Positions 31,889-58,637 of a stretch of DNA of 64,000 bases are shown here, piece after piece. Position 1 is the first letter of the stretch. Each line of letters begins with the position of its first letter. Below the pieces are notes generated by a model that saw only the letters and a program-made list of their open reading frames with translations, searched no databases and had not been told where the DNA came from. A program made the position numbers and the translations under genes. The stretch is from Candidatus Gallimonas merdae (lineage in GTDB: Bacteria; Bacillota; Clostridia; Christensenellales; Borkfalkiaceae): contig CAJFRT010000001.1 in assembly GCA_904419525.1 (NCBI GenBank), forward strand, positions 1 to 64,000, read 5' to 3'.

Positions 31889-32926
31889 TTATTTTGCCTG
31901 AACGGATACTTTCAGCTTGCGGCTCTCCGTCGTTTTACAGAGGCTGCTATAAATTGCCGGATAATTCTTTTTCAGTGCAGTTGTATCCGTCCTGCTTGAT
32001 TTTTTTGTAACGAAGTCGATGAGTATCTTGTCCGTTGTGCTTTCCAGCACCCCGTGTTCATGACGCTCCATCAACTCCGCAATTCGAACAGATTGTTGTT
32101 CTACCTCCTCTTCGATTTTACTGATTTCTGATTTGTACATCTCTTTCTTCTCCTGCAGCGCGAGAATCTTCCTAAGCGACGGCTCGTACGTTCTCGGCAA
32201 TTCAATCGTTGCAAGATCCGGATCGCTGGCGCCGTAAATCCGGGCAAGCGATTCCAATGCAAGTTTCGGCGCGATGTTCTCCATCGTCGGAGGCACGTCG
32301 TTTTCCAGACTCCAAACCCATCGGTCGAGTTTTTCGAATATCATATCTTCCTTTGCCTTATCGCGGTACAGCCTCGGATGCACGAAGTCGGTATCAGGGT
32401 TGTTTCCCCAAAATGCAGAAAAGTCCCCGTAACTGACATCTGCCACCGCTAAATAAAAACGAAGCTGCAACTCATAATATAATGGGTATGCTCCGTCCGC
32501 CCACGAAGAAGCCTTGTGATACGTCGTCGTCTTGCATTCGAGGATCCCCGGCTCACTGTCTTCTTTGCGGATTATCCTCCTGTCGAAGTTAGCAAGCGCA
32601 TACGGATGGTCTGCGTGCTGATACAGGAACGTGTCATCAATGACGATATTCCCTGTGGCGTCAGCATAGAGCTGCGCAGCAATCGGTTCGAGAAGATGCC
32701 CCATCTTCAGCTGTGCTGCATTGATTTTATCTGCCGGTTTCATCTGCCCTTTTTTGATCTTCCAAAGTTCCAGCGGCGTCATCCACGGTGATACCCCGAA
32801 AATCGCCGCCACATCGCTGCCGCCGACCGTATAAGGGATATCCCCCTTCGGACCGTGCATACGACAATCCAGCCAGCGCGACTCGGTCATGCCCTTGGTG
32901 TCGCATAAAATGACCGGCGCGCTCAT
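31889..32926 (-). CDS. YqaJ-like viral recombinase/exonuclease
   Basis: 345 residues. DIPYTVGGSDVAAIFGVSPWMTPLELW (region 28-55) is the YqaJ entry motif; LLEPIAAQLYAD, YALANFDRRII and PGILECKTTTY give the Glu, Asp and Glu-x-Lys catalytic set of the PD-(D/E)XK nuclease fold, and YYELQLRFYLAV holds the Gln helix. It would resect duplex DNA for single-strand annealing with a partner protein. Its ATG overlaps the upstream stop by one base (TGATG), so it is translationally coupled. A coiled-coil-like segment lies near residue 245. Confidence 0.88.
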   Translation of the reverse strand: MSAPVILCDTKGMTESRWLDCRMHGPKGDIPYTVGGSDVAAIFGVSPWMTPLELWKIKKGQMKPADKINAAQLKMGHLLEPIAAQLYADATGNIVIDDTFLYQHADHPYALANFDRRIIRKEDSEPGILECKTTTYHKASSWADGAYPLYYELQLRFYLAVADVSYGDFSAFWGNNPDTDFVHPRLYRDKAKEDMIFEKLDRWVWSLENDVPPTMENIAPKLALESLARIYGASDPDLATIELPRTYEPSLRKILALQEKKEMYKSEISKIEEEVEQQSVRIAELMERHEHGVLESTTDKILIDFVTKKSSRTDTTALKKNYPAIYSSLCKTTESRKLKVSVQAK

Positions 32927-34068
32927 CAGTAATTTACCGCCTTTGCAAGGTCATATTCTTCCCAGTCCATCGAAAGCGTCCTCGCAATGCTTTCTTCGAC
33001 GAGAAGGATTTTGCTCTGCGGCGTTTTTTCTGCCTTAAGATTAAATTGAATCTCCTGAAGCGCCATAAATACATCATGCGCTGTCGCAGGGCCACCACCG
33101 TTCGAGGCTTCGAACATGCGTACTGCTTCCAATGCCGCCTTTTTCGGTAGGCTGAGCTTTTTACAGATCCTGGTCATCGCGTTGACCGGATAGCTCAACC
33201 ACACCTGCGCCAGATCCTGCAATTTGCCGATGCTGTCGCCGAACTGCGCAAAGAGTTGATCCAGCGCCCTTTCGAAGTTTTCGATCTTATTGTGGTTGCG
33301 ATGGTCGACCGAAATGCAGCTCCCGATATGGATAGGCATTTCACCGCCCAGAAGAAGCGCCGATACTTTAGCCGACGCAACGCCCGTATCCGATGTTGTG
33401 AAACGAATGCCGGGGATAAGCTTGTCTGCTATATGTGGCTTCCCTGTATGGGAAAGCATCTTCTTGTACGCGCCGAGAAGACTTTCCTTTTGCTTGGGGA
33501 ACTCCCATATTCCGCTTGTGACGGAATGGTCGCTGTACCCTTCTTTGAATACGTTGCCGGGGAATCGCAAATCGAGTTTCGCCTGCAAAGTCTTTATAAG
33601 CTCATCGATAGGCAGTATCGAATAATCGGAATCGTCGCCCGAATGCACGGCGGAGACCTTTTCGTCCCTGACGAGTACGAGAGCGTCGCGCTTGAAGAGC
33701 TGAAGACATGTATTCAGAACGTCTGCAAGCTCCTGTTTTTTCAGCTTCGGAAGCGCCGTCCCGCTGATCTTTGCCCTACCGAGCAAGCTGCGGTATGCGG
33801 TTTCGCGTACGGGATAGTATTCGCCGTTCACACGAATCGCTAGACCGAGGTTTGCCATCGTATCGTAGACCGCGTCTTTACTGATGCCCGGAGCAAACTT
33901 GTCGTTCGCTGCAAGAGGCGACGCCAGATCCAACGGCTCCACGTACAGGTCTTTGACCGGACATCGCGTCCAAAGGCTTGATTCTGATTGTGACTCATGG
34001 TATCCGAGCATTGCCGGATATGAACTGAACGTTGTTGAGTAACAATCCTGAAATCTTTCTTGTTCCAT
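32926..34068 (-). CDS. DUF932-like element protein
   Basis: 380 residues from the ATG at 34066-34068 with AAGGAG eight bases before. SYPAMLGYHESQSESSLWTRCP opens the protein; GYSDHSVTSGIWEFPKQ, GIRFTTSDTGVASAKVSALLL and ISVDHRNHNKIENFERALDQLF follow, a plan like the DUF932 proteins of phages and conjugative elements. No catalytic motif is evident. It is the first gene after the 34.1-34.35 kb leader and starts the DNA-metabolism operon. Family call is tentative. Confidence 0.55.
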   Translation of the reverse strand: MEQERFQDCYSTTFSSYPAMLGYHESQSESSLWTRCPVKDLYVEPLDLASPLAANDKFAPGISKDAVYDTMANLGLAIRVNGEYYPVRETAYRSLLGRAKISGTALPKLKKQELADVLNTCLQLFKRDALVLVRDEKVSAVHSGDDSDYSILPIDELIKTLQAKLDLRFPGNVFKEGYSDHSVTSGIWEFPKQKESLLGAYKKMLSHTGKPHIADKLIPGIRFTTSDTGVASAKVSALLLGGEMPIHIGSCISVDHRNHNKIENFERALDQLFAQFGDSIGKLQDLAQVWLSYPVNAMTRICKKLSLPKKAALEAVRMFEASNGGGPATAHDVFMALQEIQFNLKAEKTPQSKILLVEESIARTLSMDWEEYDLAKAVNY

Positions 34069-34078
34069 AATAACTACT

Positions 34079-34322
34079 CCTTTGATTTTATTTAGCGGAA
34101 TACCGCCATGAATATAACAAAAGCCGCCGGTCACGAGGATAACCGACGGCTTGTGTCCTGAAATGGATAAGAAACAAAAAAGCCGGCATCCACGAATGAA
34201 TGCCGGCTTTTACCCCTTTTTGAGGCATGAAAAAAGTGCCGTTTGCATATTGACTGCAAATGGCACTATGATAACTCGGATAAATGTGTCTGAGAGACTC
34301 AAACGAGAAACTTTGTACTGAT
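34079..34322 (-). promoter_or_regulatory. Leader C: structured 5' leader with three tandem terminators
   Basis: About 240 bases between the promoter and the ribosome site. On the minus strand it starts AGTTTCTCG, has TTATCCGAGTTATC, then terminator C1, C2 and C3, and ends with a small hairpin GGCGGTATTCCGC (near 34095-34107) ahead of AAAGGAG. The start, the GTTATC segment, C1 and the pre-RBS hairpin are shared with leaders A (48.2 kb) and B (56.6 kb); C2 and C3 are extra. Confidence 0.7.
34121..34267 (-). terminator. Three tandem terminator hairpins C1-C3 in leader C
   Basis: C1: stem 34235-34247 with 34255-34267, then TTTTTT. C2: stem 34179-34189 with 34200-34210, then TTTTTTG. C3: stem 34121-34131 with 34142-34152 (one G-U pair), then TTGTTAT. 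All lie between the promoter and the first start codon. Confidence 0.75.
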
Positions 34323-34351
34323 ATTATAACAAATTTTAAGAACTCCGTCAA
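34323..34351 (-). promoter_or_regulatory. Promoter of leader C (TTGACG-17-TATAAT)
   Basis: TTGACG (34346-34351), 17-base spacer, TATAAT (34323-34328). The same -35, spacing and -10 recur at leaders A and B. Confidence 0.8.
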
Positions 34352-46758: not shown

Positions 46759-47472
46759 TCAGTTTAATAGATTGATTTGGATTCCTTCTTCTGCGCACTC
46801 GGCGCTCTCAAGCCCATTGCGGACAAGCTCTTTGCAGATTTCAGGCCAGCTCTCCCTTACAGGTAATTCTGTGCCGGGAATAAGAAACGCTGCTTCACCC
46901 TTTCCGAGTTCTTCATTGCACCGAGCATTCAGTTCGAGGATATGTGACTCAACCCACTCGTAAGCGATCAACTCATAATTGACCGCCGGCTGTTCTTCTC
47001 GTACCGGCGCGGCAACAACTGCTTTGTCTTCTGGCGTATCCTGCTCTGCTAAAATCTTTCCGATCATCTCGATATGTTCAACTTTTCCGTCGCAGCAGAT
47101 CACGCACGCTTTTCCGTATCCGCCCGCCTTGTTCAAAAGAATATAGGCATGTCCGTCATTCAGAATTTTTGCCGTAGAATCCGGCTCCGCCCATACCCAC
47201 TTCGCTCCGGGGTACAGTTCGTTTACCCGCTCCGTTACCTGCTGCGCGATCGGCCTGACAGGTGCGGCAGATGAAACAAGCGTCTCATTTTCTTCTGTGC
47301 TTTCACAGTACCGTTTGCTCTTTTTCCGTCCGATTGCCCATATTGTCAGGATAACTGCCTGAACGAACAGACAGATCAAGAAAAATAGCCACGCCCTGAT
47401 GCAAAGCATGAAAACTGCAACAATTCCAACGAATGTAAAAAGGCGCAGTAAAAGTTCATTTTTATTCTGCAT
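46759..47472 (-). CDS. Membrane-anchored protein of the AAA+/VWA operon
   Basis: 237 residues, GGAGG six bases before the ATG. Two adjacent membrane helices at residues 8-27 and 28-48 (FTFVGIVAVFMLCIRAWLFF, FLICLFVQAVILTIWAIG), then a cytosolic domain with WVWAEPDSTAKILNDGHAYIL and a C-terminal helical part. No family recognised. It precedes the AAA+ gene by 13 bases and might anchor that complex at the membrane. Confidence 0.72.
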   Translation of the reverse strand: MQNKNELLLRLFTFVGIVAVFMLCIRAWLFFLICLFVQAVILTIWAIGRKKSKRYCESTEENETLVSSAAPVRPIAQQVTERVNELYPGAKWVWAEPDSTAKILNDGHAYILLNKAGGYGKACVICCDGKVEHIEMIGKILAEQDTPEDKAVVAAPVREEQPAVNYELIAYEWVESHILELNARCNEELGKGEAAFLIPGTELPVRESWPEICKELVRNGLESAECAEEGIQINLLN

Positions 47473-47593: not shown

Positions 47594-47638
47594 AAAGGCG
47601 CACATGAGTATCATAATGATAAACCCATGTGCGCCTTT
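47594..47638 (-). terminator. Intrinsic terminator after ssb
   Basis: An 11-bp GC-rich stem (47596-47606 with 47626-47636), inner AT-rich stem, then seven T on the minus strand. Placed 30 bases after the SSB stop and ahead of a gene with no visible promoter. Confidence 0.85.
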
Positions 47639-47667: not shown

Positions 47668-48165
47668 CTAAACTGCCTGACCGAAAAAGTCCTCCCCGCC
47701 GAACGGTTCGTATCCGGAAAAATTCTCCGACGCTTCCGGATTCGCGGATGTTTTCTTGTTCGGCTGTTTAGAAGCTTTTGTAGCTGTCTGTGCCTGCTGC
47801 TGGGCAGACTCCTGCGTTCTTGACGATTTTCCTCCGCCTGATGCGTATTCGATATCCCTGAGGATAATGACCGTCATTCGCTTGATTTCGCCCGTCTCTT
47901 CGTCTGTCCAGACATCCTCATCCAGATCCCCGACCAGATTGATGAACGAACCCTCCTTGACCTGCATTTTCTGGATACGCTCACAGAGCGGTCCGAACGC
48001 TTTGACTGTGTAGTTGTTCCAGCGAGTATTGTCATCCTCGCGGGAATCATACACTTTTTGTCCTATCCTAAATCGCACATGTTCCCCGTTATCGGAGAAC
48101 TTGAGCGCAGGACTGTTATTGTAGCCTTTGGAGACCACAACATTGGTTGCAAATACTTTAATCAT
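47668..48165 (-). CDS. ssb: Single-stranded DNA-binding protein
   Basis: 165 residues. The OB-fold spans residues 1-110: IKVFATNVVVSKGYNNSPALKF, RWNNYTVKAFGPLCERI and FINLVGDLDEDVW. The tail is Gln/Ser-rich and ends GGEDFFGQAV, so the usual acidic DDDIPF-type tip is degenerate. It coats single-stranded DNA during element replication or transfer. AAAGGAGT lies in the conserved leader A directly upstream. Confidence 0.85.
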   Translation of the reverse strand: MIKVFATNVVVSKGYNNSPALKFSDNGEHVRFRIGQKVYDSREDDNTRWNNYTVKAFGPLCERIQKMQVKEGSFINLVGDLDEDVWTDEETGEIKRMTVIILRDIEYASGGGKSSRTQESAQQQAQTATKASKQPNKKTSANPEASENFSGYEPFGGEDFFGQAV

Positions 48166-48174
48166 AACGACTCC

Positions 48175-48335
48175 TTTGCAGGTATTCCCCTGCTGAAAAT
48201 AATATTATTCCGACCCGCTTATCGCAGGAAGAAACCGAGAAAATAAAAAAAGTGCCAATTTGCACCTCGGTGCAGATTGACACTTTAAAAATCGGATAAC
48301 TTTGATTTCTTTCTAAAATCTCGAAACTGTATTTT
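48175..48335 (-). promoter_or_regulatory. Leader A: conserved structured leader before ssb
   Basis: From the transcription start the minus strand reads AGTTTCGAG, then CAAAGTTATCCGA, a full intrinsic terminator, TTTTCTCGGTTT, a hairpin around GCGATAAGCGGG, and GCAGG-loop-CCTGC directly before AAAGGAGT. The same blocks in the same order are found in leader B. The early CGAGA could pair with the later TCTCG across the terminator, a possible antiterminator arrangement. Confidence 0.75.
48249..48286 (-). terminator. Terminator inside leader A
   Basis: Stem 48249-48265 with 48270-48286 (17 positions, a few mismatches), four-base loop, followed by a T-run on the minus strand. It would stop transcription about 90 bases after initiation. 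Confidence 0.8.
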
Positions 48336-48336
48336 T

Positions 48337-48365
48337 ATTATATCAGAAAAAAACCGTACCGTCAA
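48337..48365 (-). promoter_or_regulatory. Promoter of leader A (TTGACG-17-TATAAT)
   Basis: TTGACG (48360-48365), 17 bases, TATAAT (48337-48342). Confidence 0.85.
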
Positions 48366-49823: not shown

Positions 49824-50444
49824 TTATATGGAAAAAAGTTCTTCCCCGGCATTCTGTTTATTTTGCTTTGGATTCTGCGCTCCAGACAAAACGGCATACT
49901 TGACCGTCAACCATGCCGAATAATGTTCTTTCGTGACGAGTAGCAGCCCGCTGAAATTTTCCAAAGTCATGGCAACGGCCACACGGTTTTCCGGTTTACC
50001 CCCGAACTTCGGAACGATGAGCCCCTTTTCCGTGACCGATCCAGGTCCGCTTTCCGCAACCAACAGAAGATCCGACTTTATGCCCGCATAAAGCTGGAAT
50101 GTTCTTGAGAGGCTCATGCCATCCTGCCGCCTCCGATTCATGCGCGAAAGTTTTTCTGCCTGTGTTCCGCCGAGACTTTGGTATATCGGCGTTTTATCGC
50201 CGTTCTTTTTCTTCATATGGATCATATAGCGCAACTCGCCGCAGCATAGTTTTCGGCATAATTCCAAGAACTCATCCGCCGCAAGATAAATGTGTACGGA
50301 ATCCGTTTGGCGCTTCCCTTCCGGACGATCCATGTTATACGCGGCAAAATTCAGATGAATCTTCCCGATGCCGTATGTATCGTTCAGGCTTTCCACGAAA
50401 CAATTTTTCGCGTCTTTCCTGATGATTTGGTTTTCGTTATTCAT
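49824..50444 (-). CDS. Unrecognised element protein
   Basis: 206 residues, GGAGGGGG upstream. Begins with IHLNFAAYNMDRPEGKRQ and DSVHIYLAADEFLELCRKL, a beta-alpha plan seen in small plasmid proteins, then a basic middle MNRRRQDGMSLSRTFQLYAG and a PH-like beta-rich C-terminus (RVAVAMTLENFSGLLLVTKE). No family claimed. Overlaps the upstream stop by four bases. Confidence 0.68.
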   Translation of the reverse strand: MNNENQIIRKDAKNCFVESLNDTYGIGKIHLNFAAYNMDRPEGKRQTDSVHIYLAADEFLELCRKLCCGELRYMIHMKKKNGDKTPIYQSLGGTQAEKLSRMNRRRQDGMSLSRTFQLYAGIKSDLLLVAESGPGSVTEKGLIVPKFGGKPENRVAVAMTLENFSGLLLVTKEHYSAWLTVKYAVLSGAQNPKQNKQNAGEELFSI

Positions 50445-54745: not shown

Positions 54746-54957
54746 CGGGGTACCAAGCGATACCCCGGAAAGAAAAGTTATAGGCTTACGTCCGAATCTA
54801 TATAAAAAGCCTGCAAGACGTTTTTTCTTACAGACTTGAAGCCCTCAAAATAACAAGGCAACAGATCCTGCCGCCTTGGAAAGAAGGTTGGGCGGAACAA
54901 AAGTTCCGTATATATGAAAAAAGGCACCCAAAGAACATCATGTTCTCTGAGTGCCTT
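54746..54957 (-). terminator. Array of four tandem intrinsic terminators
   Basis: H1: stem 54921-54937 with 54941-54957, then TTTTTTCA. H2: stem 54854-54863 with 54869-54878, then TTATTTT. H3: stem 54808-54817 with 54827-54836, then TTTTTATA. H4: stem 54746-54754 with 54759-54767, then TTTATAT. All read on the minus strand in a 290-base gap with no supported promoter or gene. Confidence 0.75.
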
Positions 54958-54998: not shown

Positions 54999-56138
54999 TT
55001 ATTTTCCTAACGACAACAGCTCCTGTATGCGCTTTTGAAGATGCTCCTCGATCCGTTTCAATCGATTTGCCGGAAGATTATACTTCGGATGCTTTTTGAA
55101 ATTAAAATTGATCATCTTCCGGAGCTGCGCCCTCTGTCTGTCCGTAACGAACTCGTTTACGATTGCCTCGTAAGTTACGCCTTCAAAAGCAGGTCGCCTT
55201 GTTTTTGCATAATTTCCTAAATCTCGCAAATCATCGTCCATAGCGTAATTGAAAAGCGAAAGCCCGTTATCGAATATGGGAGCAAACGCTATCGGCAGAT
55301 TTGTCTTGTTATCGACGAGAAGCCCGAAATTTCCGAAATGCCTGTCTGTATTATAAATCAACGAATCGAAAATCAGCATATCGACAAAGCCATTATAAAA
55401 ACTTTCGCCAAGATTCCGCAAGAAAACGGCGACCTTTGTAAGCGTACACTGACCAAGGAATTTGTATATCGGCACATAGGAAGTGTCCATGTCTGTAAAC
55501 AACTCGCAGGTTGAACAAACCATTCCCTTCCATTTCGCAAGACCATACGAAACATGGTACAGACCCATCCTGTCAGCGATTTGCGCCGAGTAATATTCGG
55601 AATAAGGCTCGTTACCCGTGTTTGCCGCGCCTGTTGTGCCGCCCTTATACAAGTAGATCTTTCTATTGATTCTTCTCCAGCATTTTCGCAGCATTCCGTT
55701 CGTCGTGTACTCGGGCGACGAAGAAAATCCTCTCTTTGTAGCACTGCCATAGCCCGTATATGCTATCAACGCGAGAGCTCTGGCAAAACTGTTCTGGTAT
55801 AGGTTGTAGTTCTCAAACTTTCCTTCAAATCCTTGTTCGACAACCCAGTAGCTGTCATTCAGAGACAGCCCTTTGCAAAGGTTGATGATACCCATTGTGT
55901 CATTGTGCGACAACCCGCTGCGGGATAAAATCTGGTCGACAAACTCACGGTTTTTAGGTATGACGCGGGACGACAGCCATCTGCCAAGCCCCTCGCCCGT
56001 TGCCTCCATGCCGATAGGAAGAAGATGTTTGTGTTGCTCGTCAATCCAGTCTATGAAATACGATATTTCGCCGATTGCCGAGCGTTCAATATGAAACGTG
56101 AGCAACACACTGTCATATTGTCTTAATTCATAATTCAT
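54999..56138 (-). CDS. HipA-like protein kinase domain protein
   Basis: 379 residues, AGGAGG eight bases before the ATG. The kinase-like C-terminal region has YKFLGQCTLTKVAVFLRNLG, then the catalytic loop SLIYNTDRHFGNFGLLVD (His-x-Gly-Asn) and APIFDNGLSLF (Asp-x-Gly), as in HipA/CtkA kinases. The N-terminal 120 residues do not show the usual HipA N-domain. No HipB-like antitoxin lies next to it; the nearest HTH protein is 750 bases away on the other strand. It has its own promoter and ends at the terminator array. Possible growth regulator or defence kinase. Confidence 0.75.
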   Translation of the reverse strand: MNYELRQYDSVLLTFHIERSAIGEISYFIDWIDEQHKHLLPIGMEATGEGLGRWLSSRVIPKNREFVDQILSRSGLSHNDTMGIINLCKGLSLNDSYWVVEQGFEGKFENYNLYQNSFARALALIAYTGYGSATKRGFSSSPEYTTNGMLRKCWRRINRKIYLYKGGTTGAANTGNEPYSEYYSAQIADRMGLYHVSYGLAKWKGMVCSTCELFTDMDTSYVPIYKFLGQCTLTKVAVFLRNLGESFYNGFVDMLIFDSLIYNTDRHFGNFGLLVDNKTNLPIAFAPIFDNGLSLFNYAMDDDLRDLGNYAKTRRPAFEGVTYEAIVNEFVTDRQRAQLRKMINFNFKKHPKYNLPANRLKRIEEHLQKRIQELLSLGK

Positions 56139-56190
56139 TTGACGTTCCTCCTGTAAAGTTCAAAGACCTATACATTTGCCGACTATCTCT

Positions 56191-56219
56191 ATTATATCAG
56201 CAAAACAGATTTTTTTCAA
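56191..56219 (-). promoter_or_regulatory. Promoter of the HipA-like gene
   Basis: TTGAAA (56214-56219), 17-base spacer, TATAAT (56191-56196), about 50 bases before the start codon. Confidence 0.8.
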
Positions 56220-56314
56220 GCACATAACGGTCTTTCTGATTTATATTGACGGGGACATTCCCAAAACAAAAAAGCGCCTGCAATCCCCTAAGAAAAATTT
56301 TTCCGAAAGTTCTT

Positions 56315-56575
56315 TCATGCCGTTTTTGTTAAAGAGACGCCGGTACCATCCTTCATTGTTTGTTCAAACCAAAGGATATCCTGCCAAGAAAGCCATTCCG
56401 GTTTTACCGGCACGAGATTCCACAATTCCTTCATTTTTGCGATGTGTGAAGATATATCTTTACCCCACAGAAACTTTTCCTGCCTGCCTCCGCCTGTAAG
56501 GAAATACATACAATCACTGCGGCAGCGGTCAAGTAACATATACGCTTGCTCGCCACTGAACATTAATTTGCTCAT
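56315..56575 (-). CDS. LPD11-like small protein
   Basis: 86 residues from the ATG at 56573-56575 (AAGGAG nine bases before); an ATG two codons earlier is only three bases from the site. GGGRQEKFLWGKDISSHIAKM and LVPVKPEWLSWQDILWFEQT match the large-polyvalent-protein-associated domain 11, which occurs both alone and fused to huge proteins of Firmicute mobile elements. Function unknown. Controlled by leader B. Confidence 0.7.
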   Translation of the reverse strand: MSKLMFSGEQAYMLLDRCRSDCMYFLTGGGRQEKFLWGKDISSHIAKMKELWNLVPVKPEWLSWQDILWFEQTMKDGTGVSLTKTA

Positions 56576-56583
56576 ATCCATTT

Positions 56584-56744
56584 ACTCCTTTGCAGTGTTC
56601 CCTGCCAATATATTTATTCCAAACCGCTTTCGCGGATCAAAACCGAGAAAATAAAAAAAGTGCCAATGCGCACCAATACGCGAATTGACACTTTAGAACT
56701 CTGATAACTTTGGCTTCTCAAAGAAACCTCGAAACTACATCTTT
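56584..56744 (-). promoter_or_regulatory. Leader B: second copy of the conserved leader
   Basis: Block order is the same as leader A: AGTTTCGAG, CAAAGTTATCAGA, terminator, TTTTCTCGGTTT, hairpin around CCGCGAAAGCGG, and GCAG-loop-CTGC before AAAGGAGT. The two can be aligned by eye from the -35 to the ribosome site. The sequence around the ribosome site (CTGCAAAGGAGT) is identical in A and B. Confidence 0.75.
56658..56694 (-). terminator. Terminator inside leader B
   Basis: Stem of AAAGTGTCAAT pairing with ATTGGCACTTT plus an inner CGC/GCG stem, followed by a T-run on the minus strand. The arm sequences match those in leader A. Confidence 0.8.
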
Positions 56745-56773
56745 ATTATAGCAGAAAACAACTTATCCGTCAA
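56745..56773 (-). promoter_or_regulatory. Promoter of leader B (TTGACG-17-TATAAT)
   Basis: TTGACG (56768-56773), 17 bases, TATAAT (56745-56750). It faces away from the XRE regulator promoter 60 bases further on. Confidence 0.85.
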
Positions 56774-57560: not shown

Positions 57561-57944
57561 TTAAAACAACTTTGCGGTAATATCCGTCACCTGCACGAAC
57601 GGATCATCCCAAAAACGCGAGTCGTAGGAATGCTCCTCGTTATCGCCAAGGACAAAGTATTCCCCGCTCGGTACAACCAACCCCTTCCCTCTCCACTCTA
57701 CCATATCCCCCTCCGCCGCTGCAATCCGCTTAACGAGCAGCGAACCTTCATGCTCAAATGCGATGATGTCCCCAACCTGCGGCTCAGGAAAAATTCTCAT
57801 TCCGAAAACGACACTGTTCTCTTTCAGCGTCGGCTCCATCGATGCCGATGGAACGACTCCAATGAAGAACACCGTCCTGAACAAAAGAAAAATCCCGATG
57901 AACACCATCATCGGGATCAAAATATATATTATTCGTTTTCTCAC
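57561..57944 (-). CDS. Signal peptidase I, minimal form
   Basis: 127 residues from a GTG at 57942-57944 (AGGAG seven bases before; GTGA overlap with the upstream stop). One N-terminal membrane helix, VVPSASMEPTLKENS with the catalytic Ser, LLVKRIAAAEGD with the catalytic Lys and LGDNEEHSYDSRFW. Shorter than housekeeping enzymes (about 160-190). On the element it may process exported proteins such as the large surface protein encoded upstream. Confidence 0.9.
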   Translation of the reverse strand: MRKRIIYILIPMMVFIGIFLLFRTVFFIGVVPSASMEPTLKENSVVFGMRIFPEPQVGDIIAFEHEGSLLVKRIAAAEGDMVEWRGKGLVVPSGEYFVLGDNEEHSYDSRFWDDPFVQVTDITAKLF

Positions 57945-58393
57945 GCACAGTCTCCTTTTCTTTTATTTCGCATTGACGCCGTCTTCCTTTCAAATAACTT
58001 TTTACTCTCCTCTATTACCATGCTACAGTAATACTCGCCAAGATATCCGATATGCGCTTCAGACAGAGGCGCCGAAATCAAGTTGGCAAGCCAAAAGTAT
58101 GCTTCCTCCTTGCTCATAATCCCGCTTTTATATAGTTTATCGAAATGCCTGTGTGCCTCCGTCCGCAGTGCCCTGAGTTTATGATCGGCCATAGTTCCTA
58201 CTGGCTTTTTCGTTCCCTTCTGCACTCGGACATACGCATCGCACTCAGGATAGTTAGAACACACGTACAGCATGGTATCCGCACTGTTTTCGCGGTAAAT
58301 TCCTTCTGCGCTCCGGAACACGACCGACGCACCGCAATACGGGCAGCGCATCGGATTCAGATTCCCCGTTTTTTTCTTTTTATTCTTCTTCAT
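57941..58393 (-). CDS. DUF3268 zinc-finger protein
   Basis: 150 residues from the ATG at 58391-58393 (GGAG about 13 bases before). MRCPYCGASVVFRSAEGIY and LYVCSNYPECDAYVRVQKGT form a topoisomerase-type zinc finger with two Cys pairs. The rest is helical (EAHRHFDKLYKSGIMSKEEA). An in-frame extension through the leader to 58525 exists but crosses the terminator hairpin, so it is not used. DUF3268 proteins are common on Firmicute phages and elements, role unknown. Confidence 0.8.
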   Translation of the reverse strand: MKKNKKKKTGNLNPMRCPYCGASVVFRSAEGIYRENSADTMLYVCSNYPECDAYVRVQKGTKKPVGTMADHKLRALRTEAHRHFDKLYKSGIMSKEEAYFWLANLISAPLSEAHIGYLGEYYCSMVIEESKKLFERKTASMRNKRKGDCA

Positions 58394-58413
58394 TGCAATT
58401 GTATCGCTCCAAT

Positions 58414-58637
58414 AAAAAAAGTGCCGGAAAGCCGCCGATTCATACGGTTTCATGCAATGGTTTTCCCCATCCTGAATCCGTATAAGTTGCGACCTTCCGG
58501 CCAGATTTTCTTTGAATTGCGCCATTGTGGATCGCTCAATGCGCTAATCCGTAACGGTTCCTTGTCCGCTCGAACAAGTCTGACACCCCGAATTCGTCTG
58601 ATGTACCGAGAGCCTTTGCGCAACTCTTTTGTGCCAT
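58414..58637 (-). promoter_or_regulatory. Leader D: long leader with branched terminator hairpin
   Basis: About 225 bases from the promoter to the DUF3268 gene. A 13-bp stem (58489-58502 with 58423-58436) encloses a second stem (58478-58484 with 58441-58447) and a third (58467-58470 with 58457-58460), and seven T follow at 58414-58420. A 33-codon ORF starts at 58636-58638 and stops well before the hairpin; a second frame runs through the hairpin into the gene. The sequence is unrelated to leaders A-C. Confidence 0.65.

Follow-up and report, generated by a model that had tools for sequence, protein, structure and literature searches.

The put RNA of phage HK022 is a short 5' RNA that occurs before terminators in at least two early operons of a single element; it consists of two stem-loops and acts through the zinc finger of the beta' subunit of RNA polymerase. 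The nut sites of phage lambda, which work with the N protein, join a linear motif to a hairpin (boxA and boxB), with one copy per operon and terminators behind. EAR, the RNA of exopolysaccharide operons, is an RNA antiterminator of Gram-positive bacteria. To our knowledge few Gram-positive RNA antiterminators are known, and those either exceed the present RNA in length or depend on a partner protein. Here we describe a repeated leader of a mobile element in Candidatus Gallimonas merdae (contig CAJFRT010000001.1, positions 1-64,000, assembly GCA_904419525.1); this whole stretch of 64,000 nucleotides (nt) is called the window below.

The nearest systems that we found in the open-licence part of PubMed Central are canT and conAn, and no description of the present RNA was found there. 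According to PMC11658703, which also names put and nut, canT of Tn916 was studied as a single region of 452 nt that lies between orf8 and xis. PMC8955417, which names put and EAR, presents the RNA conAn2 as responsible for antitermination on pLS20; transcripts from internal promoters stop at the next terminator, and the protein ConAn1 is required for processivity. The leaders described here resemble canT in having terminators at and inside the operon, as described in PMC11658703, and resemble conAn in starting a long operon with internal terminators, as given in PMC8955417. They differ from canT in that the core has only about 45 nt and stands once per operon, with two to four copies in nine of 15 genomes or contigs. 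Our data suggest that this core is probably a cis-acting, processive antiterminator RNA of the nut, put and canT kind, belonging to a family of mobile elements of Clostridia.

The leader recurs in elements of several families of Clostridia

The window contains three leaders, A, B and C, all on the minus strand and each heading an operon of the one element (Table 1). An earlier note on this DNA, made from the letters alone, had listed a promoter, an AGTTTC-type start, a GTTATC-type segment and a terminator as their common parts, and we found all four in all three leaders, together with the small G+C hairpin that it had placed ahead of AAAGGAG. The list lacked a hairpin within the core (P1), the tandem terminators (two more in C) and a terminator behind ssb. 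Only A, B and C have the exact TTGACG-17-TATAAT promoter in the window; with at most two mismatches the string occurs 14 times where 5.3 are expected. The AGTTTC 13-mer alone is within chance (8 matches, 5.6 expected), whereas the whole module exceeds chance. A and B can indeed be aligned from the -35 element to the ribosome site, an alignment of 199 nt with 76% identical positions (E 9.7e-33 when searched for in the own genome), and at 76-79% identity they may well be copies of each other. Leader C aligns with both across the promoter, AGTTTC, the GTTATC-type segment and the terminator, and scored 65 bits with a covariance model (R1) that counts C among its six training members.

Protein searches led to relatives by a route independent of the RNA. 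The first relative noticed was a leader in genome G023 before an ssb gene 52% identical to that of the window. A search with the ssb protein named L018 (JAUNGQ010000002.1), L019 (CANQPO010000033.1, which is G023:C33) and L020 (CAJTGI010000003.1), whose records are labelled Eubacteriales, Clostridia and Clostridiaceae, and the leader precedes ssb in all three. It also gave a new locus in G1225 with a full leader (70.8 bits), and all six distinct ssb relatives reached by protein (L018, L019, L020, G456, G792 and G1225) carry the leader. Since the same leader stands before ssb in other families, we rejected the idea that A and B are one recent duplication and nothing more. A search with the AAA protein reached a full leader (67.9 bits) in the gut virome contig MT837680.1; it also matched two records of Listeria phages at 31% identity.

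In that contig (L102), which comes from the human gut and was deposited as a bacteriophage, the leader is again accompanied by ssb, its terminator and the AAA gene. This may mean that the element or a relative is packaged or phage-like, or else that the contig is contaminating host DNA. Searches of plasmids and phages with the leader by blastn gave nothing useful (one plasmid match was a 24-nt piece), exact leader patterns were not found in viral contigs, the ssb and AAA proteins had no relative in viral contigs, and ssb had none in plasmids.

Covariance models were built from six leaders (R1), from ten (R2) and, for the core only, from 25 (R3). R1 found four genomes among 101 relatives (G000, G023, G056 and a spurious one). 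Among 396 genomes of the order R2 matched eight at E 0.001, of which five were real (G000, G056, G183, G276 and G309, each at least 47 bits) and three were without the core. Among 391 genomes of the class it matched 21, and six were accepted as real (G000, G456, G666, G674, G772 and G792, each at least 42 bits); among 398 genomes of the phylum it found the own genome and one false match. A scan of the same 391 class genomes with R3 yielded 12 matches in six genomes, which were five of the accepted R2 genomes and G637; G772 was missed. Of the 12 matches, 11 were leaders already known, each followed by a terminator. R2 matches that scored 33-41 bits in these scans of the order and the class were rejected as terminators without a core; R3 gave no match at E 0.01 or better on 15 of these 17 loci (all except L051 and L055), the best score being 17.4 bits (L044). 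The R3 training alignment was made without L028, L023, L058 and L042, where MAFFT had misplaced the hairpin; they score 21.6, 29.4, 26.4 and 33.4 bits with R3.

The census came to 32 copies: three each in the window, G023, G456 and G792, four each in G183 and G666, two each in L018, G276 and G674, and one each in L020, G309, G772, G056, G1225 and MT837680. No further real copy was found in the rest of the own assembly, which is 92.6% complete. Left out of the counts were L024 and L029, judged spurious on inspection by eye, L098, which scored 37.5 bits with R2 and had neither AGTWTC nor an R3 match, and L091 in G637, which is core-like (38.3 bits with R3) but has no visible promoter and no terminator directly behind. 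L105 (G666:C43) falls outside the counts of 29 and 31 leaders given below.

The core is a covarying hairpin between two short motifs

The core runs from AGTWTC through the hairpin P1 to CAnAGTTWTCnGAG. The 5' motif, as [A/T]GTWTC, is present in 31 of 31 leaders; the sequence 3' of P1, CAnAGTTWTCnGAGTT, partly repeats it and fits 22 of the 31. P1 has at least five or six pairs. On an alignment of 25 leaders made by MAFFT without structure, 93.3% of the P1 cells were paired against 66.3% in shuffles, and 32 cells showed double changes against 9.6. Shifting the partner by one column lowered pairing to 57% or 43%. On a model-fitted alignment of 28 leaders, which leans towards P1 pairing, 99.4% of the cells were paired and all six pairs showed compensatory changes. 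Such changes are the signature of an RNA. The earlier note had proposed a covariance-model check, with further homologues and covariation as what its module should show; homologues were found, and it is the hairpin after the first motif that covaries.

The two parts of the core are not conserved in the same way. P1 sequences are 0.38 identical within an element, 0.38 between unrelated sites and 0.48 between orthologous sites. The two flank motifs are 0.81 and 0.71 identical within an element; between elements the first reaches 0.72 to 0.76 and the second 0.65 to 0.66. Since the stems diverge while the flanks stay alike, a common reader would see the flanks and the shape of the hairpin rather than the sequence of the stem.

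In 26 of the 28 leaders aligned, a -10 hexamer is separated from AGT by 8-10 nt. The core therefore starts near +1 to +3, with 5' ends predicted from the promoters, and a conserved RNA structure stands near the predicted 5' end of the operon transcript. These well-placed promoters, and the gene for an Xre-type regulator near leaders (beside B; less than 3 kb from the first leader in G183, G309, G456 and G792; 11.5 kb in G674), would also suit a module that is mainly a promoter or operator unit of DNA copied to several operons, whose transcribed part is an operator or initial transcribed sequence and whose terminators insulate. Such a unit would not call for compensatory changes in P1. An operator-only reading also misfits because three copies have lost the promoter and kept the RNA core; two of these are both copies of G276 (L080 judged by eye), one of which has an intact core and the second terminator where the first was not found. 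We therefore consider such a DNA unit very unlikely. Conservation through the leader had been taken earlier to imply a selected RNA or operator function, and of the two the RNA function stands, on the homologues in several families and the covarying P1, while an operator alone does not.

No leader peptide was recognised in the core: an ATG occurs in seven of 31 leaders at differing places, any ATG, GTG or TTG in 22 of 31, and a Shine-Dalgarno-like string in two of 31. With no conserved short reading frame with a ribosome site in the core, a leader-peptide attenuator was rejected. Against Rfam 15, the 15 of 32 leaders that were run (three in the window and 12 at 11 loci) had no match at the gathering score, and all six matches of leader A were below it; on these grounds membership of an Rfam family, be it a riboswitch, a T-box, EAR or another kind of leader, was rejected for them.

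In ssb leaders the terminator is followed by a second covarying hairpin without a T run (P3), then the small G+C hairpin and the ribosome site. For five of the ten consensus P3 pairs, one or more of ten leaders had both partners exchanged; the outer GTTTC/GAAAT pairs, nearly invariant, are found in ssb-type leaders and B. P3 may serve processing or control of ssb. The conserved 5' structure, and the extra hairpins P3 and P4 ahead of the ssb ribosome site, could be thought to mark a riboswitch-like sensor or a structure that protects the mRNA, with partial terminators that lower expression. Set against this are the Rfam result, a core of only about 45 nt with one hairpin, and the recurrence of the same core before unrelated genes of one element, and of all the explanations we give this one the least credence.

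Predicted terminators stand behind the core and along the operons

With the core end set at the alignment column before the first terminator (P2), the terminator stem starts -1 to +3 nt from that end in 28 of 29 leaders. Of the same 29, 16 bear two or three terminators in tandem that differ in sequence and pass a cut-off of -11.5 kcal/mol, the further ones about 50-145 nt behind the core; hairpins in L030 and L039 (near -8), L063 (-8.9) and L036 (-10.1) fell short of it and were not counted. Outside the ssb type and B, tandem terminators belong to 16 of 18 leaders: eight of nine leaders of YqaJ operons, such as C, and eight of nine first-operon and divergent leaders. None of the ten ssb leaders has them, nor does B. 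A string like TTTTATATAGAT recurs by eye directly after later terminators in L026, L028, L032, L036, L042, L062-L064 and the window (about 54810-54795).

All 12 ssb loci have a strong terminator directly 3' of ssb, just ahead of the ribosome site of the next gene; in the window it comes some 650 nt after the core. By hand count, the next ATG lies 19-25 nt past the T run in the 11 loci with an ATG in view (in the window it starts a short frame that precedes gene 46759-47472). This gap leaves little room for a promoter, so that the rest of the operon would be reached mainly by polymerase that has passed the post-ssb terminator. Across six element stretches we counted 70 terminator-like hairpins in sense and 26 in antisense orientation, or 46 and 26 without the 24 leader hairpins. 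Predicted terminators are thus found between the core and the genes and again further downstream.

We found no systematic complementarity between the core and the arms of the first terminator in 29 leaders (mean z relative to shuffled cores +0.62 and -0.06 for the two arms, range -2.3 to +2.1). The potential pairing of CGAG with CTCG across the terminator, pointed out earlier for A and B, exists in both, yet only these two of 31 leaders have it. A classical attenuator with exclusive pairing of core and first terminator was rejected on these two results. There is also an attenuator that needs no such pairing: a protein or ligand acting at the core could decide the first terminator only, operon by operon and without processivity. 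The closeness of terminator to core and the single leader terminator of ssb-type leaders would be as expected, and the unpaired flank motifs, partly repeated around P1 in 22 of 31 leaders, form a conceivable site for a dimeric protein. Such a switch is at odds with the further strong terminators of other sequences in more than half of the leaders, the terminator behind ssb at every ssb locus, the lack of general complementarity, and the G276 copy that retains the core where the first terminator was not found. We regard it as unlikely.

A proposed model of processive antitermination

Tandem unrelated terminators, the absence of excess pairing with the core, the G276 copies and the post-ssb terminator together favor antitermination over a switch at one terminator. 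We propose that the core would be transcribed at the extreme 5' end of most operon transcripts, and that the nascent core would act on RNA polymerase during elongation, either by itself or by way of a protein of the host or the element. The modified polymerase would then pass the adjacent terminator, the tandem ones and those inside the operon, while transcripts without a core, coming from outside or from internal promoters, would stop at them. Three terminators 1.7-1.9 kb behind leader B in the window point the same way, and transcripts from the core-less promoter-like site of the HipA-like gene would be predicted to stop at them.

Several points weigh against this antiterminator. The models that yielded most copies already included P1 and P2, so that pairing and terminator closeness are biased; the copies reached by protein (L018, L020, G1225 and MT837680) are free of this bias. 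The closeness is also partly a matter of definition, given how the core end was set, although the core-only scan with R3 came upon the terminator behind 11 of its 12 matches, and the count of 16 of 29 leaders with tandem terminators was made without a shuffled control. Pure antitermination does not demand that the first terminator be alike in many copies, as it is, and the single terminator of the ten ssb-type leaders and B is also expected of a simple attenuator. The post-ssb terminator could merely be a leaky dose control with partial read-through. Intra-operon terminators, with the leaders excluded, are equally frequent in sense and antisense in G183 (11 and 11) and G276 (5 and 5). The second motif copy is present in only 22 of 31 leaders, and the leader is absent from two AAA relatives at a greater distance (38.7% identity) in the virome set to which MT837680.1 belongs.

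Nor was a trans-acting factor found. Among ten genomes, only two have a NusG-domain gene (PF02357) on a leader-bearing contig: G183, at a distance of about 0.9 Mb, and G276, at 28 kb. No NusG paralogue lies within any element stretch of these ten genomes, and a LoaP-dependent leader was rejected on this ground. No RNA-binding family was recognised among the element proteins scanned, which were part of the reading frames of at least 60 amino acids.

As a separate observation, a second-type NusG-domain gene (224 amino acids; G276:C1:132440-133766) adjoins an integrase of the phage type; the leader stretch lies about 28 kb away.

We take the core for a new RNA family whose mode of action most likely follows a known kind. 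By description put differs in having two stem-loops, where the core has a single hairpin flanked by a short motif and its second copy. The layout of motif and hairpin is similar to lambda nut; no N-like protein or boxA was recognised here (proteins of at least 60 amino acids). EAR differs in the genes that it precedes and in the lack of an Rfam match noted above. Kinship with canT and with conAn2 was rejected with R2 and R3. On pCF10 (20000-67000, with Tn916-like genes) nothing at E 1 or better fell in the presumed orf8-xis stretch, and the best scores (18.1 and 17.8 bits with R2, 21.8 with R3) were all outside it. On bases 1-50000 of pLS20 (65774 in all) the single R2 match (25.7 bits at 34348) was a plain terminator, and R3 gave none.

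There is in our judgment an even chance that these RNAs form a new and very compact class in a fuller sense: a single hairpin enclosed by two AGTWTC-like motifs, some 45 nt in all, in two to four copies that make an element-wide regulon, coupling genes of replication, recombination and maintenance across several families of Clostridia and resisting successive terminators, perhaps with no protein of the element. If antitermination is what the core does, a 45-nt element with some thirty natural variants would be a handy system for studying the way in which RNA polymerase is altered by a nascent RNA. Such an element would also account for how the genes of the element family stay silent to outside transcription and yet several operons are switched on together. 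Because the post-ssb terminator is conserved, a short reporter would suffice for a direct test of processivity.

Organization of the element

Genes shared with the relatives span about 26.8 to 57.5 kb of the window, with glycosidase and transport genes to the left and other genes to the right. They encode primase-like, RecD2, YqaJ, DNA methylase-like, CobT-like VWA, AAA, ssb, and YodL and LPD11 domain proteins, and relatives add an NAD-dependent ligase and a ParM-like actin. Neither a PF00589 integrase nor a PF03432 relaxase was found inside the element stretches of five genomes, and other recombinases were not searched; we therefore speak of a mobile element and leave its kind unnamed. The order of the leaders is conserved (first operon, ssb, YqaJ operon), 8.4-15.3 kb apart and 21.8 kb in G183.

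Table 1. Leaders and associated features on the minus strand of the window.
Feature	Positions	Strand	Details
Leader A promoter (TTGACG-17-TATAAT, TG before -10)	48337..48365	-	8 nt from -10 end to AGT
Leader A antiterminator-like core: AGTTTC, P1 (48304-48320), CAAAGTTATCCGA	48287..48330	-	40.1 bits with R3 (R3 training member); covariation
Leader A terminator P2, then T run	48249..48286	-	-20.2 kcal/mol
Leader A hairpin P3 (GGTTTC..GGAAT), no T run behind; ssb-type leaders	48207..48236	-	
Leader A small G+C hairpin (GCAGG..CCTGC), adjoins ribosome site	48178..48193	-	
ssb-like gene, first behind leader A	47668..48165	-	Pfam SSB 28.8 bits
Strong post-ssb terminator	47594..47638	-	-27.2 kcal/mol; about 20 nt before next ATG
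Leader B promoter	56745..56773	-	exact TTGACG-17-TATAAT
Leader B core with P1 (56712-56728)	56695..56738	-	41.2 bits with R3 (training member)
Leader B terminator P2	56657..56694	-	-16.5 kcal/mol
LPD11 gene, first behind leader B	56315..56581	-	Pfam LPD11 86 bits
Promoter-like site of the HipA-like gene, no RNA core	56191..56219	-	
Intra-operon terminator cluster (54957-54921, 54878-54854, 54837-54807)	54807..54957	-	1.7-1.9 kb past leader B
Leader C promoter	34323..34351	-	exact TTGACG-17-TATAAT
Leader C core with P1 (34288-34304)	34270..34314	-	31.8 bits with R3, 67.5 bits with R2 (training member of both)
Leader C terminator 1	34235..34267	-	-16.0 kcal/mol
Leader C terminator 2	34178..34211	-	-22.7 kcal/mol
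Leader C terminator 3	34121..34152	-	-21.7 kcal/mol
First gene behind leader C, function unassigned; then YqaJ exonuclease, RecD2	32926..34071	-	381 amino acids

Leader B is an ssb-type leader before an LPD11/HipA cassette, at the place that the first-operon leader holds elsewhere, and terminators like those of the first-operon place persist in the window between HipA and the next gene. This cassette of LPD11 and HipA-like genes (54999-56581, minus strand) heads the first operon, and G309 has a HipA-like gene, 72% identical, behind a different leader.

A protein of 206 amino acids (49824-50444, minus strand) is encoded in eight leader-bearing elements and is 61% and 56% identical to two relatives. 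It had no Pfam match and no relative in PDB at E 1. It is a possible partner or replication protein.

Just outside the conserved genes of the element we found a DUF3268 RNA (RF02966, 95 bits; 58514-58632, minus strand) directly before the gene for a DUF3268 zinc-finger protein (57941-58525), with a promoter-like TTGACT-17-TATACT upstream of the RNA.
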